A stretch of DNA of 64,000 nt. It comes from Oscillospiraceae bacterium. Lineage in GTDB: Bacteria > Bacillota > Clostridia > Oscillospirales > Ruminococcaceae. Of the stretch, positions 31,802-40,977 are shown in pieces. The stretch covers positions 133,464-197,463 of the forward strand of contig JAJQGJ010000012.1 in the NCBI GenBank assembly GCA_021200565.1, written 5' to 3'. A program made the position numbers and the translations under genes. Numbering within the stretch: the first letter of the stretch is position 1; each line of letters begins with the position of its first letter. The notes beneath the pieces are model-generated. The model was given only the letters and a program-made list of their open reading frames with translations. It was not told the origin of the DNA and searched no databases.

Positions 31802-31826
31802 ATATAGGTGAAAGGGTGTGAGAGCT

Positions 31827-32384
31827 TTGGATGACAATGCTATTATCGAACTATACTGGGTGCGTTCTGAGAGTGCTATTGACGAAACTGACCGCAAGTA
31901 TGGCGGGTATCTGAGTACCATCGCCTACAACATTCTTCATAGTTGGGAAGACTCGTCGGAGGCGGTCAACGATACATATCTTCGGGCTTGGGACAGCATG
32001 CCTCCCGAAAGACCGAATATCCTGTCCGCATTTCTCGGAAAGATTACCCGCAGGATTTCTCTCAACAAGCGAAGAGACCAAAGAGCCGAAAAGCGTGGCG
32101 GCGGGGAGATTGATTTGGTTTTAGATGAGCTCGCAGAAAGCTTGCCATCAAAGTCTTCCGTTGAAGAGGAAGTCGACGCAAAAGCTCTCACCGAAACACT
32201 TAACAGATTCTTAGGAAGCCTCAAAGAAGCCGAGCGAGACATGTTCCTAAGGCGTTACTGGTACATGGATTCGATTAAGGACATCGCCGAAATGTTAGGT
32301 TGCGGGGAAAGTAAGGTCAAAACGACGCTCTTCCGCACCCGCAAAAAACTGCTTGCAACCATAGAAAGCGAGGGATTAATATGA
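31827..32384 (+). CDS. ECF-type RNA polymerase sigma factor
   Basis: Region 2 DSSEAVNDTYLRAWDSMP..RP...FLGKITRRISLNKRR; region 4 FLRRYWYMDSIKDIAEMLGCGESKVKTTLFRTRKKL; TTG start at 31827 has better SD spacing than GTG 31818. Confidence 0.9.
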   Translation: MDDNAIIELYWVRSESAIDETDRKYGGYLSTIAYNILHSWEDSSEAVNDTYLRAWDSMPPERPNILSAFLGKITRRISLNKRRDQRAEKRGGGEIDLVLDELAESLPSKSSVEEEVDAKALTETLNRFLGSLKEAERDMFLRRYWYMDSIKDIAEMLGCGESKVKTTLFRTRKKLLATIESEGLI

Positions 32385-33625
32385 AGCCGATTGACGTTAT
32401 ATACGCCCTGAACGACGTTGACGATGAATACATCCTCCACGCCATGAACCCGAGCCGTAGGAGGGTTGTAAGCATAAGAAGAGTGATCATTGCGGCTATT
32501 ATAGTTATCCTCGCTGTGGTGTGTGCAACAAGCATTTATTCCAGTAAAACATTCAGATATGGTATTAAAACTGCTACCGATGACCCTGTTGATTCTGCTC
32601 TGAATTACCTTGAAAGTCTGGCTGATGAGGATTATGTATCGACAATAGAGGTATACGGCGGCATGATTTACGACCAGAGAACGGCTGAGGTTCTCGAATA
32701 TTGGGATAACACAGTCGATGAGCGTGATTGGAACGAAGACAACTTTGTTGTCGTCTATACTGAGTATTACGTCGAGTACGTTCACGACATGGTGCCTCTC
32801 AACGATGGTTACACTGCAAGGACATTTTGGATGGAATATAACGAAGCAACCAATGCCTGGTATTACTACGACGGCATGAGTGGAATTCCGTTCCTCGGTA
32901 TCTTTGAAGAAGACGGTTTAGGTCACAATGGTTGGACAAAGGACGACGTCGCCGCCTACAATGCCGCAACAGCATATCTTGAAGAAAACTTCTCCGATGT
33001 CGAGATTTGCGGGTACAAGCTTGATCACTCAAAGACCGTGGCAGTTATTGACGATTATCCCGAGCTTGCCGAAGAGCGTGACTGGCGTTGGACGCAATGG
33101 ACGACATACGACTACACTTTCTACGTTGTCTATGCAGAATACTATGCCGACTATGAGTACTCGGCTGTATGGCTCTGGATGGAAAAAGATGCTGAAACCG
33201 GTGAGTGGTCTTGCTACAAGGCAGATACAGAAGCAGAGCTCGAGTATGTGTATGTGACTCGTGAAGCTCCTCCAGGGCAGGATGAAAGGGCTTTGGAAGC
33301 GGCGACCCAAGCTATAAAGGCTTTGGCTGAAGATGAAAGCATTGAAAGCGTCTGTATGTACGGTTCGAAGGTCGACAGCGACCAGACACGCCTGGTGCTT
33401 ATCGACGATTCAAATCCCCTTGCCGAGGAGCGAGGCTGGAGCAGAGTTTACAAGACCTTCTATGTCATCTATGCCGAGTATCAGATCAGATACACTAACG
33501 GTGGAGCCGACGGTGTAATAGCTTACCTCTGGATGGAAAGAGATACGGAAACCGACGAGTGGTCGTGTTACTCTATAAAAGACATTACGGCGACCAAGTC
33601 GAGATTCTTATATAAGCCGATATAA
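32381..33625 (+). CDS. Membrane protein with three extracytoplasmic repeat units; likely sigma-factor partner/anti-sigma
   Basis: 4-bp overlap with the sigma gene; short cytoplasmic N-terminus, one TM (VIIAAIIVILAVVCA), three units with (V)ERDW..F.VVY.EY..Y..W and TG/TDEWSCY. Confidence 0.75.
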   Translation: MKPIDVIYALNDVDDEYILHAMNPSRRRVVSIRRVIIAAIIVILAVVCATSIYSSKTFRYGIKTATDDPVDSALNYLESLADEDYVSTIEVYGGMIYDQRTAEVLEYWDNTVDERDWNEDNFVVVYTEYYVEYVHDMVPLNDGYTARTFWMEYNEATNAWYYYDGMSGIPFLGIFEEDGLGHNGWTKDDVAAYNAATAYLEENFSDVEICGYKLDHSKTVAVIDDYPELAEERDWRWTQWTTYDYTFYVVYAEYYADYEYSAVWLWMEKDAETGEWSCYKADTEAELEYVYVTREAPPGQDERALEAATQAIKALAEDESIESVCMYGSKVDSDQTRLVLIDDSNPLAEERGWSRVYKTFYVIYAEYQIRYTNGGADGVIAYLWMERDTETDEWSCYSIKDITATKSRFLYKPI

Positions 33626-33980: not shown

Positions 33981-34137
33981 GAAGGGAGAAATTTAGTACT
34001 GATATGCAACCCAGATGCATACTCTTTTTTAAGTGTTTTTACTTCCCGAAAAATGCAAAAAATATTTGAAAAAGTGCTTTTATTTGCGACGTACATGTGA
34101 TATAATAGCTTTGTATAAATATATGAGGGGTCAGAAT

Positions 34138-35001
34138 ATGGACAGAAATAACAATTTCCGTAAAAATAACAGCCATGGCGGCGATAAGAGATATAATAAC
34201 AAGAAGTCTGATAATAAGAAGCCTGAAAAGCGTGACAAGCGTGAGGACATTAACGAGGATGAAGACTACCCTGTCGAAATGATTGTCGGGCGAAATCCGG
34301 TCATCGAGGCTCTCAAGGCTGAGAAGCCTATTGACACAATATACATCGATAAAGAAGCCACAGGCTCTATCTCGGTCATAGTGAAGCTGGCAAAAGAGAG
34401 TAATATTGTCACAAAGCAGGTCAGCCATGAAAAGCTCACGGCGATGTCACGGATGACCAACCACCAGGGCGTTGTGGCAATGGGAGCATGTGCAAAGTAT
34501 GTTGAGATTTCGGATATACTTGAGCTTGCGAAATCCCGTGGTGAAGACCCGTTTGTCATCATCTGTGATGAAATAAACGACCCACATAACTTAGGAGCTA
34601 TCATAAGAACAGCAGAGTGCTCGGGTGCACATGGAATCATAATTCCGAAGAGGCGTTCGGCATCACTGAGCGGAACCGTCTATAAGACTTCTGCAGGAGC
34701 TGCAAGCTGGCTGCCGGTGGCGAGGGTTCCCAATATTCCGGCGGCTATCGACGAGCTCAAAGAAAACGGCGTCTGGATTTACGGGACGGACGCCAAGGGC
34801 GAGCAGTATGACAAGGCGAATTTAACCGGTCCCATAGGGCTTGTAATCGGTTCCGAGGGCGAAGGGATGGGACGCCTGGTCAGCGAAAAGTGCGACTTCA
34901 TGCTGAGCCTGCCGCTTAAGGGCAAGGTCAACTCCCTCAACGCTTCTGTTGCGGCTGGAATATTTATGTATGAGGTTCTCCGCCAGAGGTCAGTAAAGTA
35001 A
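34138..35001 (+). CDS. rlmB: 23S rRNA 2'-O-ribose methyltransferase, RlmB-type SpoU/TrmH
   Basis: IVGRNPVIEAL; DPHNLGAIIRTAECSGAHGIIIPKRRS; GLVIGSEGEGMGRLVSEKCD; NSLNASVAAGI. Confidence 0.93.
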   Translation: MDRNNNFRKNNSHGGDKRYNNKKSDNKKPEKRDKREDINEDEDYPVEMIVGRNPVIEALKAEKPIDTIYIDKEATGSISVIVKLAKESNIVTKQVSHEKLTAMSRMTNHQGVVAMGACAKYVEISDILELAKSRGEDPFVIICDEINDPHNLGAIIRTAECSGAHGIIIPKRRSASLSGTVYKTSAGAASWLPVARVPNIPAAIDELKENGVWIYGTDAKGEQYDKANLTGPIGLVIGSEGEGMGRLVSEKCDFMLSLPLKGKVNSLNASVAAGIFMYEVLRQRSVK

Positions 35002-35044: not shown

Positions 35045-37600
35045 ATGTCTGATAAAAATTTATCTGTCGAGGATATACTCGAAGAATATGCAAGTAAAGC
35101 AACCGGAAAGTCGTCCGGAAGCGTGTCTGAGGATTCGTTTGACCTCGACGCTATCCTGAGTGGCACTTCAAAGCCTGCAGCCTCTAGAAAAACCGAGGTC
35201 ATCGAGGATGTTTTAGAGGTCGGCGACAACAGCTTCGTTTTCGACCCGTCAAGCCTTGACGAGGTTATCGCTTCAACCGAAGCTCCTAAGCCCCGCTATC
35301 CCTTTGAGACGGCTGCTGTCACAGAGCCGACAGCCGAAATTCTGTCAAAAGAGCCGGAAGAAGACCTTGCCGGAGAGCTTGACATCCGTCACGGAAGCGG
35401 CACTACGAAAGGCACCGTCGAGATGGAAAAGGTTCTCGAAAGGAATCAGCCTAAGCCAGCTCCAGAACCTCAGCCGGAGCCCAAGCCTCAGCCTCAACCT
35501 CAGCCGGAGCCAAAGCCTCAGTCGGTGAAAAAGTCATCCTCTGTTGAACCGGAAATCCGTCCGATAACCGGTCAAAACGCCGATGAGATGATAATGCAGG
35601 ATCTTCTCAAGCTCAAGAGCGAGCGTGGGACTCCGAAGCCCAAGAGACAAAATGTCGACCCGGTAAACCGTGCGTCGATTGAAGATATAGACCTCGGGAT
35701 GGAAAAGAAGATCATCCCGAATACAGAGGTTGGTCTTGACGAAAATGCAACCGAAGAGGAGCGTCTTGCCTATCTGAACGCAAAGCGCCGTGAAAGGGTG
35801 AAGCAGTTTATCGCCGAATCGGAGGAAGAGGAAAAGCCGGATAAAAAATCCGTCGAGGACTTCGAGAGCTTCGATCAGGCTCAGGCTATGGCGAAGAGTA
35901 TATCAAGCCTCAAATCAAGCCTCGTTGTCCGGCTGTGTGCGCTTGTTATAGCATCGCTCCTGTCAGTGTACATAACGATTGCAACTGATATGGGGCTCTC
36001 GCTCATTCCGATTCTAACACAAGCTACCTCATATGTCTTCGCAAACGTTATTTTAGGGCTTGTTGCCTGCTTTGTTTCCTACACTGTAATATCCGTCGGG
36101 CTCAAAAAGCTATTCACCATGAAAGCTGACAGCGACAGCCTTGCGGCAATTTCGATGATATTCAGCCTTCTTTCAGGAGTTGCGCTTCTTGCCGACTCGC
36201 AGGTTGTCGAGATGAAGCTTGCAAACGTCTACATCAGCGTTTCGATAGTCGGGCTTCTCATAAACACCATCGGAAAGCTTCTTATTGTCACGAGAACCGA
36301 GCGCAATTTCCGTTACATTTCCGGCGGATATTCAAAATACGCCGCAATGCATATCGACGACGAGGACGTTGCAAGTAAGTTCACAAAAGGTGCTCTCACC
36401 GACTTCCCTTCCCTTTCGACATCCCGCAAGACCGAATTTGTAACAGATTTCATCAAGAACAGCTACTCTGCTGATATTACCGACTCGTTCTGCAAGATTT
36501 ACGTTCCGATTGTCACTGTCATTTCGATTTTAGTAGGCGTTATCGCTGCGTTCAGGTATCCGATTGAAATAACCGACACGGCAGGAAGAATCTACTACGC
36601 ACTTTCCTGTGCAGCCGGAGCCATGGCGCTCTGCTCGGCTATGGGAATGATGCTCGTCACTAACATCCCTCTTGCAAAGGGTTCGAAGAAGTATCTCCAG
36701 TCATCGGCTGTAATGCTCGGCTATTCGGCTGTCGACAAATTCTCCGACACCAACTCGGTTCTTATTGACGCCGTTGACCTCTTCCCTGACGGAATGGTCG
36801 AGATTGTCAACATCAAGCCGGTGAGAAAGACTCCAATCGAGGATGGCATCCTCTATGCTGCTTCCCTCTGCTGCCAGACCGAGAGCATTCTCAGACCTGC
36901 ATTCTACAAGACCATCAAGGGCAAAACCGAAATGCTCTATCCGGTTGAGAGCTACATCTATGAAGACGGCTTGGGCCTTTCCGGCTGGATTGAGAATCAG
37001 CGTGTCCTGTTCGGAAACAGAACCCTCATGGAAAGCCATTCTATCGAAGGTCTTCCGACACTTGAAAAAGAGGCATCCTATGCCAAGGGCGACAACATCG
37101 TCTATCTCTCGATAGGCGGAGCTCTGGCTATGATATATGTAGTGAAGCTGAAGGCGTCGCTCTCCGTTTCGAGAGCTCTTAAGGACCTCGACAAGCAGGG
37201 CATCACAGTTATACTTCGCTCAGTCGATTCGCTTTTGAGCATCACCAAGCTTTCGGAGCTCTTCGGAGTGAAGCCGACAATATTCAAGCTCCTGCCGTTC
37301 AGGTATCATTCGGACTATGACGCACAGACCTCATATGTCGCTTCGATGTCCTCGCCGATGATCTATTCGGGCAGATTCTCATCTTTGGCAATGCTCCTCT
37401 GCGGCACCAAGCGACTCCAACGCTCGGGAGCAGTCGGCGTCACAATCCAAGCGCTTGCATCAATTATAGGCGTAATCCTCGCCGTGATATTCTCAATAGT
37501 AGGCTCGTTCGGAGGAACGCTTACAGCAACGGTAGTGCTGGTCTACAGCCTTATATGGACGCTGATCACAGCTGTGGTGCAATCAATATCAAGAACATAA
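35045..37600 (+). CDS. Large membrane protein with degenerate P-type ATPase architecture (predicted pseudo-ATPase) and long disordered N-terminus
   Basis: N-terminal Pro/Glu/Gln repeats; VPIVTVISILVGV; GLGLSGWIENQRVLFGNRTLMESHSIEGLP; ALKDLDKQGITVILRS; lacks DKTGT, TGE, HP and GDGxNDxP motifs. Confidence 0.7.
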   Translation: MSDKNLSVEDILEEYASKATGKSSGSVSEDSFDLDAILSGTSKPAASRKTEVIEDVLEVGDNSFVFDPSSLDEVIASTEAPKPRYPFETAAVTEPTAEILSKEPEEDLAGELDIRHGSGTTKGTVEMEKVLERNQPKPAPEPQPEPKPQPQPQPEPKPQSVKKSSSVEPEIRPITGQNADEMIMQDLLKLKSERGTPKPKRQNVDPVNRASIEDIDLGMEKKIIPNTEVGLDENATEEERLAYLNAKRRERVKQFIAESEEEEKPDKKSVEDFESFDQAQAMAKSISSLKSSLVVRLCALVIASLLSVYITIATDMGLSLIPILTQATSYVFANVILGLVACFVSYTVISVGLKKLFTMKADSDSLAAISMIFSLLSGVALLADSQVVEMKLANVYISVSIVGLLINTIGKLLIVTRTERNFRYISGGYSKYAAMHIDDEDVASKFTKGALTDFPSLSTSRKTEFVTDFIKNSYSADITDSFCKIYVPIVTVISILVGVIAAFRYPIEITDTAGRIYYALSCAAGAMALCSAMGMMLVTNIPLAKGSKKYLQSSAVMLGYSAVDKFSDTNSVLIDAVDLFPDGMVEIVNIKPVRKTPIEDGILYAASLCCQTESILRPAFYKTIKGKTEMLYPVESYIYEDGLGLSGWIENQRVLFGNRTLMESHSIEGLPTLEKEASYAKGDNIVYLSIGGALAMIYVVKLKASLSVSRALKDLDKQGITVILRSVDSLLSITKLSELFGVKPTIFKLLPFRYHSDYDAQTSYVASMSSPMIYSGRFSSLAMLLCGTKRLQRSGAVGVTIQALASIIGVILAVIFSIVGSFGGTLTATVVLVYSLIWTLITAVVQSISRT

Positions 37601-39225: not shown

Positions 39226-39978
39226 CTATATCAAACTCAACTGCTCATCTTTGGAATTGTTATTTTCTGAGTTCTCCATTTCTGTCAAAGACGTTATGTC
39301 TGCTTTGCTATCAGAGATTTCAAGACCCCAACTATCCCATCCGGAATAATTTTTCCTTGCAAACAATTCTATTTTCTTTTGACTTGGAAACATTCTTGTT
39401 ATCCCTTCTATCACTTGCTCCGGCTTTTCGCTATGCTCACCACGATGAACTGAAACCAACTGACGCACATTCATCGCACCACGTGGCGAAGGGAATCGTC
39501 CCTTCTTGAATGCGAGTACAAACTCTGTCTGCGATAACGTGTAACGCCCCGGATTATGCACTTGCTTATCCCAGACAAATGCAACTGTTTTATATTCAAA
39601 CCCCCATGCTGTTCCGAGTTCTATTGAATTTTCAAGCTGTGGTCCCGTGGTCCACATAAACAATATACAATCATCTGCAGAAATGGAGTTGACATCAAGC
39701 TCTTTAAGCTCACTTAGCTTTAACGTCGGATATTTAAAATTAGCGGCACTAATAAATATATCTCGCTCAAATCCTACATTCACGGTTTTGATGCTTGTTT
39801 TGTCATATTGCATCTTTCCACCATAATCCCACGGCGGGTCAGCATATATTACATCATACTTATCAGCAGGTAATGCAGGATATTTTTCCTTAAGAGGATT
39901 TATCTTATTTCTTCTCTTAGCTTCAGGATTATATTTGGAATAACCACTTATTGAAACCGCAATATTTTCTTTGCGCAT
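39226..39978 (-). CDS. MT-A70 family DNA adenine-N6 methyltransferase, MunI methylase-like
   Basis: YDVIYADPPWDYGGK; CILFMWTTGPQLENSIELGTAWGFEYKTVAFVWDKQVHNPGRYTLSQ; HSEKPEQV. Confidence 0.9.
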   Translation of the reverse strand: MRKENIAVSISGYSKYNPEAKRRNKINPLKEKYPALPADKYDVIYADPPWDYGGKMQYDKTSIKTVNVGFERDIFISAANFKYPTLKLSELKELDVNSISADDCILFMWTTGPQLENSIELGTAWGFEYKTVAFVWDKQVHNPGRYTLSQTEFVLAFKKGRFPSPRGAMNVRQLVSVHRGEHSEKPEQVIEGITRMFPSQKKIELFARKNYSGWDSWGLEISDSKADITSLTEMENSENNNSKDEQLSLI

Positions 39979-40054
39979 GCAGAACCCTCCTTTGCACTAA
40001 ACATATTATACACAATATTCGTTTCAAAGTCAATTACAAGTCACAGCCATTTGT

Positions 40055-40085
40055 GACTTATAGTCCGTTGACTCGAATACGAGTC
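40055..40085 (+). promoter_or_regulatory. C-box operator pair for restriction-modification controller protein
   Basis: GACTTATAGTC (40055-40065) followed by GACTCG-AATA-CGAGTC (40070-40085), just upstream of the controller gene. Confidence 0.75.
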
Positions 40086-40126
40086 AATGTGCTATACTGG
40101 ACAATAATAATGCTTAGAGGTGGCAT

Positions 40127-40333
40127 ATGATTAAAAAAGAATTCGGTGAGCGTGTGCGCAAATTACGGACTGAAAAACATCTGAGTCAGGAGAAATTTGC
40201 ACTTAGTATAGACATGGATCGAACATACCTTGCCTCCGTTGAAAGTAGGAAGCGTAATATTTCCATTGAGAACATCAGCAAGATTGCAGGTGGCTTAGGA
40301 ATTACGTTAGAAGAATTGTTTAAAGGTCTATAA
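40127..40333 (+). CDS. XRE/HTH controller (C) protein of restriction-modification system
   Basis: 68 aa; FGERVRKLRTEKHLSQEKFALSIDMDRTYLASVESRKRNISIENISKIAGGLGITLEELFKGL. Confidence 0.9.
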   Translation: MIKKEFGERVRKLRTEKHLSQEKFALSIDMDRTYLASVESRKRNISIENISKIAGGLGITLEELFKGL

Positions 40334-40344
40334 GGGGTGATTTC

Positions 40345-40977
40345 ATGGCAACCAATGAACTTCGTAAAAGGACAAACTGGCAAACAATAAGTGGCGCAAA
40401 AGCTTTAAAAACCGAAGAACTCTTTCAGATTTCTCTGCAAAGCGCTCTGGATGCGGTGTTTCCTGGCAAATTTCTTGTAGAAAGGCATCCAAAGGATTTT
40501 GGCGACATATATTCTACATATCCATTGCCAGACTCCGTTTTGGATAAAATCTACAATGTCGATGTCCAAGAGAAAAAGTCGAATGGCAAAGCAAAATATG
40601 AATGGGGTATCTCAATGGACTTTGCTATAAGAAATTTAGATAACAATAAGGTGCTGTTTGGAGAAATCAAAAGACAGGATGGCTGGGTAGAAACAACAGA
40701 CATGCAGGCAGGTCGTGGCAATGCTCATGAAAGAAGCTGTAAGTACTTTACACCAGGATTGATGAGATTATTACGCCAAACAAGTGGACTTTCTGAGGAA
40801 ATACTTCCATTTTGGCTTGTTATCGTCGGCGACATAACAAGAGATCCTCGCAGAAACAGAGAGATCGCATATTGGTTCCAAGAATATACAAGTAACTACT
40901 ACATGTGGCGTGATACAAATGATGTCAGTGATTTATTGGATTTCTTTGAGAATAGCCTTTTGCCTTATTTGTTGTAA
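40345..40977 (+). CDS. Type II restriction endonuclease, MunI-like (predicted CAATTG specificity)
   Basis: LFGEIKRQDGWVETTDMQAGRGNAHERSCKYFTPGLMRLLR; DFAI...EIK catalytic motif; recalled similarity to R.MunI. Confidence 0.85.
   Translation: MATNELRKRTNWQTISGAKALKTEELFQISLQSALDAVFPGKFLVERHPKDFGDIYSTYPLPDSVLDKIYNVDVQEKKSNGKAKYEWGISMDFAIRNLDNNKVLFGEIKRQDGWVETTDMQAGRGNAHERSCKYFTPGLMRLLRQTSGLSEEILPFWLVIVGDITRDPRRNREIAYWFQEYTSNYYMWRDTNDVSDLLDFFENSLLPYLL

Follow-up and report, generated by a model that had tools for sequence, protein, structure and literature searches.

The open reading frame at positions 35045-37600 (+ strand) of the window, the whole 64,000-nucleotide stretch of DNA analyzed here, encodes an 851-residue protein that is related over the full-length fold to P1B-type (CopA-like) ATPases and, judged by its motifs, is almost certainly a catalytically dead enzyme. 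It begins with an ATG codon, closely preceded by a ggagg ribosome site, and it is under strong purifying selection. Taken as a whole, the data are best explained by a P1B-type pseudo-ATPase of single origin, inherited vertically, that acts as a scaffold or regulator and recruits through its tail; we regard this reading as probable, with some reserve. The gene, its upstream neighbor and the parts of the protein are laid out as follows.

34033..35001, + strand: rlmB, 23S rRNA (Gm2251) methyltransferase (TIGR00186, 5e-73).
35045..37600, + strand: pseudo-P1B-ATPase, 851 aa (profile matches, models, motif alignment).
35060..35095, + strand: N-terminal peptide LSVEDILEEY, residues ~6-17, predicted to form a helix within a flexible tail (consensus [FY]S[VIL][DE]DIL.E[FY]).
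35102..35869, + strand: acidic linker rich in Pro, Glu and Gln, residues ~20-275, disordered apart from two better-ordered helices (pLDDT, composition, dN/dS).
35870..36319, + strand: helices MA, MB (kinked platform), M1 and M2, residues 276-425 (DSSP on the models; hhalign to canonical P1B).
36320..36475, + strand: truncated actuator (A) domain without TGES (segment length; TGE counts).
36476..36700, + strand: M3-M4, residues 478-552, with CPC replaced by SAM in the window protein (CPC Cys 3/72 and 0/72).
36749..36796, + strand: P-domain segment at the place of DKTGTLTxG, reading DAVDLFPDG, residues 575-583 (family signature [DE][LI]FPxG).
36959..37024, + strand: N-domain core with the nearly invariant glycines G644 and G657 (49/50 and 50/50).
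37220..37230, + strand: P-domain segment at the place of TGD, of which the Asp (D728) alone is retained (Asp 70/72, Gly 0/72).
37280..37375, + strand: shortened end of the P domain, GDGxND hairpin deleted (72/72; length of segment 745-800).
37376..37597, + strand: M5-M6, residues 778-848, with the conserved W838 (DSSP; W838 39/50).

Homology to P1B ATPases begins at about residue 290, with the MA/MB/M1/M2 helices. The NCBIfam CopA model (PRK10671) matches residues 477-751 (E 1.9e-14), a single-sequence phmmer search recovers LpCopA 3rfu (E 3.6e-16), and the family profile matches the same LpCopA entry with E 6e-35. Alignment by hhalign to three canonical P1B ATPases encoded by the same genome gave 99.7% and E 2e-25 over 528 columns, broken by two large gaps, at the A domain and at GDGxND. 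The AlphaFold (AF2) model of the core has a pLDDT of 89.7 and a pTM of 0.85. Its best PDB match in Foldseek is LpCopA 4bbj (E 5.6e-20), followed by ATP7B, HMA4, ZntA and KdpB; whole-model TM-scores were modest (0.55) and the rmsd high, as expected from the differing domain arrangement. The eight-helix P1B topology, including MA and MB, is present in the models and in the hhalign alignment. The match extends over the P, N and membrane domains and places the protein in the P-type ATPase superfamily by descent and by fold. The original prediction had read the P1B order of elements from about residue 290, and PRK10671, LpCopA, hhalign and Foldseek bear this out far beyond chance; the stretches of sequence that it cited do occur in the protein. 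The profile match to the P and N domains, whose absence had been named beforehand as telling against the idea, is significant, and the confident model overlays on the P1B fold rather than on an unrelated one. Neither the window protein nor any one of 48 orthologues in the alignment matches a Pfam P-type model (E1-E2_ATPase and others) at E 0.01. In a tree, one branch with a support of 100 parts 46 pseudo-ATPase from 18 canonical sequences; the former group largely by family, their inner order being unsure owing to long branches.

Motif losses were counted in an alignment of 72 orthologues with canonical ATPases, and residue conservation in 50 diverse members of the family. The Lys, Gly and last Thr of DKTGT are each found in 0/72 orthologues; the Asp aligns in 44/72 and in 22/50 diverse members, and is kept in the genus of the window (D575) but not family-wide. 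The His of SEHP is absent throughout (0/72). At the TGD site the Gly is gone (0/72) and the Asp remains in 70 of the 72. The hairpin that holds the Mg-binding motif GDGxND is deleted in every orthologue (72/72), and segment 745-800 has a median length of 56 aa against 87-91 in canonical ATPases. The Gly and Glu of TGE are aligned in three orthologues each and the Ser of TGES in none (0/72), while the A-domain segment 418-488 is roughly half-size (median 71 aa against 136-139). The two Cys of the CPC metal motif in M4 persist in 3/72 and 0/72, the family having mostly hydrophobic or small residues in their place. These counts agree with the prediction that DKTGT, TGE, SEHP, TGD and GDGxNDxP are absent or replaced, all five catalytic motifs being gone; orthologues, in which it had asked for a check, share the losses (the DKTGT Lys, the SEHP His and GDGxND are lost in 72/72). 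The genome's own canonical P-type ATPases, examined as a control, retain their motifs, apart from one in which the frame read does not contain the exact DKTGT string (L005) and one that is cut by the end of the locus (L003). An alignment artefact is ruled out: the strings themselves are absent, bar stray TGE or TGD triplets, the alignment counts agree, and the own-genome controls keep the motifs.

Like the CopA-type P1B-1 ATPases (LpCopA 3rfu/4bbj, ATP7B and L001 of its own genome), the pseudo-ATPase has the fold and the order MA-MB-M1-M2-A-M3-M4-P-N-P-M5-M6, and it shares with them the N-domain glycines and the TGD Asp. Unlike them, it lacks DKTGT, TGE, SEHP, GDGxND and CPC, has an A domain of half the size and no heavy-metal-binding domain, and carries a terminal peptide on a long disordered tail. 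With all the known motifs lost, autophosphorylation and dephosphorylation as in P-type ATPases are not expected, and on the strength of its motifs the protein should neither phosphorylate itself nor carry metal. Some nucleotide binding is possible, however, as the TGD Asp is retained together with the two glycines that bind ATP in the N domain of CopA-type ATPases (G644 and G657, which we take to correspond to G1101 and G1149 of ATP7B).

Selection on the gene was estimated from seven close relatives (L025-L031). The dN/dS ratio is 0.010-0.046 in the P/N domain, 0.011-0.043 in the A-domain remnant and 0.07-0.17 in the tail. The protein thus combines loss of catalytic residues with purifying selection, as is expected of a pseudoenzyme, and a decaying pseudogene is ruled out by the dN/dS values and by order-wide conservation in single copy. 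Among the diverse members, new residues are strongly conserved. The signature [DE][LI]FPxG stands at the place of DKTGT, with an acidic residue at 578 in 40/50, F580 in 42/50 and P581 in 41/50; K591 is found in 40/50 (Lys or Arg in 46/50), G644 in 49/50, G657 in 50/50 and D728 in 48/49, and F620, P671 and W838 are conserved in 44/50, 42/50 and 39/50, respectively. Such constancy could mean that the enzyme was remodelled and that [DE][LI]FPxG, K591, Y702 and D728 now make up a HAD-like site of a new kind, with a different activity (phosphatase, or binding and release of nucleotide). The acidic residue at 578, the Phe-Pro pair, the basic residue at 591, D728 and the two glycines all fit that proposal, and some members have DxD at the signature site, like HAD phosphatases. 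We nevertheless consider it unlikely: HAD motif IV (GDGxND) is deleted in 72/72 orthologues, the position of the nucleophile is Asp in just 22 of 50 diverse members, and the new invariants are mostly hydrophobic or structural.

The membrane core offers another possibility, that the protein still moves something without ATP as a channel, carrier or lipid scramblase, and the retention of all eight helices speaks in favor of it. Against this, no strongly conserved Cys, His, acidic or polar ligand-type residue was found inside M3-M6 among the diverse members, and CPC is lost. Within the genus, moreover, M5-M6 are among the less conserved segments, and constraint is strongest in the P/N and A parts. 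We therefore judge residual transport improbable and prefer a scaffold or regulator built on the retained fold.

A full-length match was found in 234/247 genomes of the order and in 183/187 good genomes, nearly always in single copy. A search for rlmB in the remaining four good genomes found none, so the locus was probably not assembled. Named relatives are Oscillospiraceae, Ruminococcus and Ca. Faeciplasma records, and the order surveyed is probably GTDB Oscillospirales. In 274 genomes from other orders of the class, no pseudo-ATPase was found; there the profile meets canonical CopA alone, at 1e-40 or weaker and mostly at positions 234-522. Strong matches in a sample of the phylum were confined to genomes of the order. 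We propose a single origin of the family before the order diversified, followed by vertical, single-copy inheritance next to rlmB. The gene is broken by one in-frame TGA in one genome (L059 in G057) and split by a frameshift in another (L011/L034 in G013), which suggests sporadic breaks or assembly errors.

This distribution bears on the idea that the pseudo-ATPase regulates the canonical copper ATPase of the same cell in a pseudoenzyme-enzyme heterocomplex. A pseudoenzyme can regulate an active paralogue (PMC5201418), and a canonical P1B ATPase is also present in 117/119 genomes of the order. Most bacteria own such an ATPase, however, so that finding the two together says little. In genome G411, which has the pseudo-ATPase, the best TIGR01525 match is just 8.8e-46, far below that of other genomes, and the gene adjoins rlmB rather than a copper ATPase. 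Regulation of the copper pump is accordingly improbable, and a scaffold or regulator with cytosolic partners remains the preferred reading.

The rlmB gene ends 43 nt upstream of the pseudo-ATPase on the same strand, and it lies directly upstream on the same strand in 43/47 loci across the order, a position whose conservation the original prediction had named as a check. In the four other loci, rlmB is adjacent but the frame is split by the TGA (L059), the sequence stops at a contig end (L065), or a different gene is upstream (L057 and L077). Downstream genes vary, an EF-G-like GTPase being next in 10 loci. A promoter and terminator scan of the operon gave results no better than shuffles. The window RlmB has a basic Asn/Lys/Arg-rich N-terminal extension of ~80 residues (34033-34300). 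Elsewhere in the window there is a type II restriction-modification pair (39226-40977), composed of an MT-A70 methyltransferase (PF05063, 1.1e-18, - strand) and a MunI-type restriction enzyme (PF11407, 2e-49, + strand). An ECF sigma factor gene is followed by an overlapping gene for a membrane protein without a Pfam match (31818-33625), which is probably an anti-sigma factor.

Adjacency of this kind could indicate that the pseudo-ATPase recruits RlmB, or the assembly of ribosomes, to the membrane. In addition to the order-wide linkage, the basic extension of the window RlmB would suit the acidic tail of the pseudo-ATPase, and the EF-G-like GTPase points in the same direction. Many RlmB orthologues of distant families (~250 aa) lack the extension, however, and in L057 and L077 the gene is away from rlmB. 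We hold a link to RlmB or the ribosome to be very improbable; the adjacency may be merely shared transcription of two core genes.

The scaffold reading instead draws on the tail, which comprises ~275 low-complexity residues with a Pro-Glu/Gln run at ~136-158, in keeping with the disordered N-terminus with Pro-Glu-Gln repeats that had been predicted. The linker contains 55 D+E, 35 K+R and 26 P in 256 residues. In the full-length model, pLDDT is below 50 over most of the linker, helices at 179-194 and 237-259 reach ~77-85, and a weak helix lies at 8-19 (pLDDT 54-62). The pattern [FY]S[VIL][DE]DIL.E[FY] occurs in the tails of 28/50 diverse members, mostly close to the N-terminus; shuffled tails would give 0.5. 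Several of the remaining members have near variants. In a considerable share of the divergent families the peptide is either degenerate or absent, and three members were scored as tail-less, one or more of these being a split gene. DNA-pattern searches, those of its own genome included, found the peptide at the N-terminus of no other gene, and when residues 1-38 were used as query in a translated search the pseudo-ATPase gene was the sole match; on these searches, we reject the idea that the peptide is widespread among the proteins of these genomes. A further Pro-Glu-repeat protein is cut by the start of the window; its C-terminal part lies at 1-500 and has a hydrophobic stretch close to the end.

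We suggest that a P-type pump became a membrane-anchored scaffold or regulator, in which the eight-helix core was kept along with the folded P and N domains. The long disordered cytosolic tail would serve as a tether, and its N-terminal amphipathic peptide ([FY]S[VIL][DE]DIL.E[FY]) would capture a cytosolic partner. The pseudo P/N lobe, with its new invariant residues, may be a second docking surface that binds the captured partner or a second one. The regulatory or scaffolding membrane role of the original prediction has a well-supported premise, a conserved and almost certainly dead pseudo-ATPase (72/72 losses); the role itself is a proposal that we would put at even or slightly better, and recruitment of a cytosolic partner through the tail is conceived in the same way.

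KdpB, in the KdpFABC complex, is a P-type ATPase that acts within a complex and is not itself the transporter; it retains the catalytic motifs and hydrolyses ATP. The pseudo-ATPase differs in lacking these motifs, and no partner subunits were recognised beside its gene. A closer parallel in sequence loss is PfGCbeta, an apicomplexan guanylate cyclase with a degenerate P4-ATPase domain from which most signature residues are absent (PMC6592433). Both proteins have the P-type ATPase fold and have lost most of its signature residues, but PfGCbeta is eukaryotic, of P4 type and fused to a cyclase, whereas the pseudo-ATPase is bacterial, of P1B type and free-standing. The iRhom pseudoproteases are likewise a membrane enzyme fold that lost catalysis and became regulatory (PMC3149277); their fold is unrelated, and the likeness is an analogy of evolutionary route alone. 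Degenerate P-type domains are already known from apicomplexan guanylate cyclases, and what appears new is the bacterial family: no report of an inactive bacterial P-type ATPase family was found in the open-access literature, an absence that is weak evidence.

A partial match is usually enough for a P-type ATPase to be annotated as a pump, and this pseudo-ATPase family is near-universal in one order of gut bacteria yet missed by Pfam. A pump may have been converted once, before the order diversified, into a non-pump core component of a near-indispensable, order-specific membrane complex, which would make this the first free-standing, order-wide bacterial family of P-type pseudo-ATPases; we advance this tentatively, at a little under even confidence. 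As a natural experiment, the family allows one to ask what use a P-type fold has when ATP is not involved, and through the new invariants and the tail peptide that question can be put to a direct test. The family also suggests that these gut bacteria have a core membrane function so far unrecognised.
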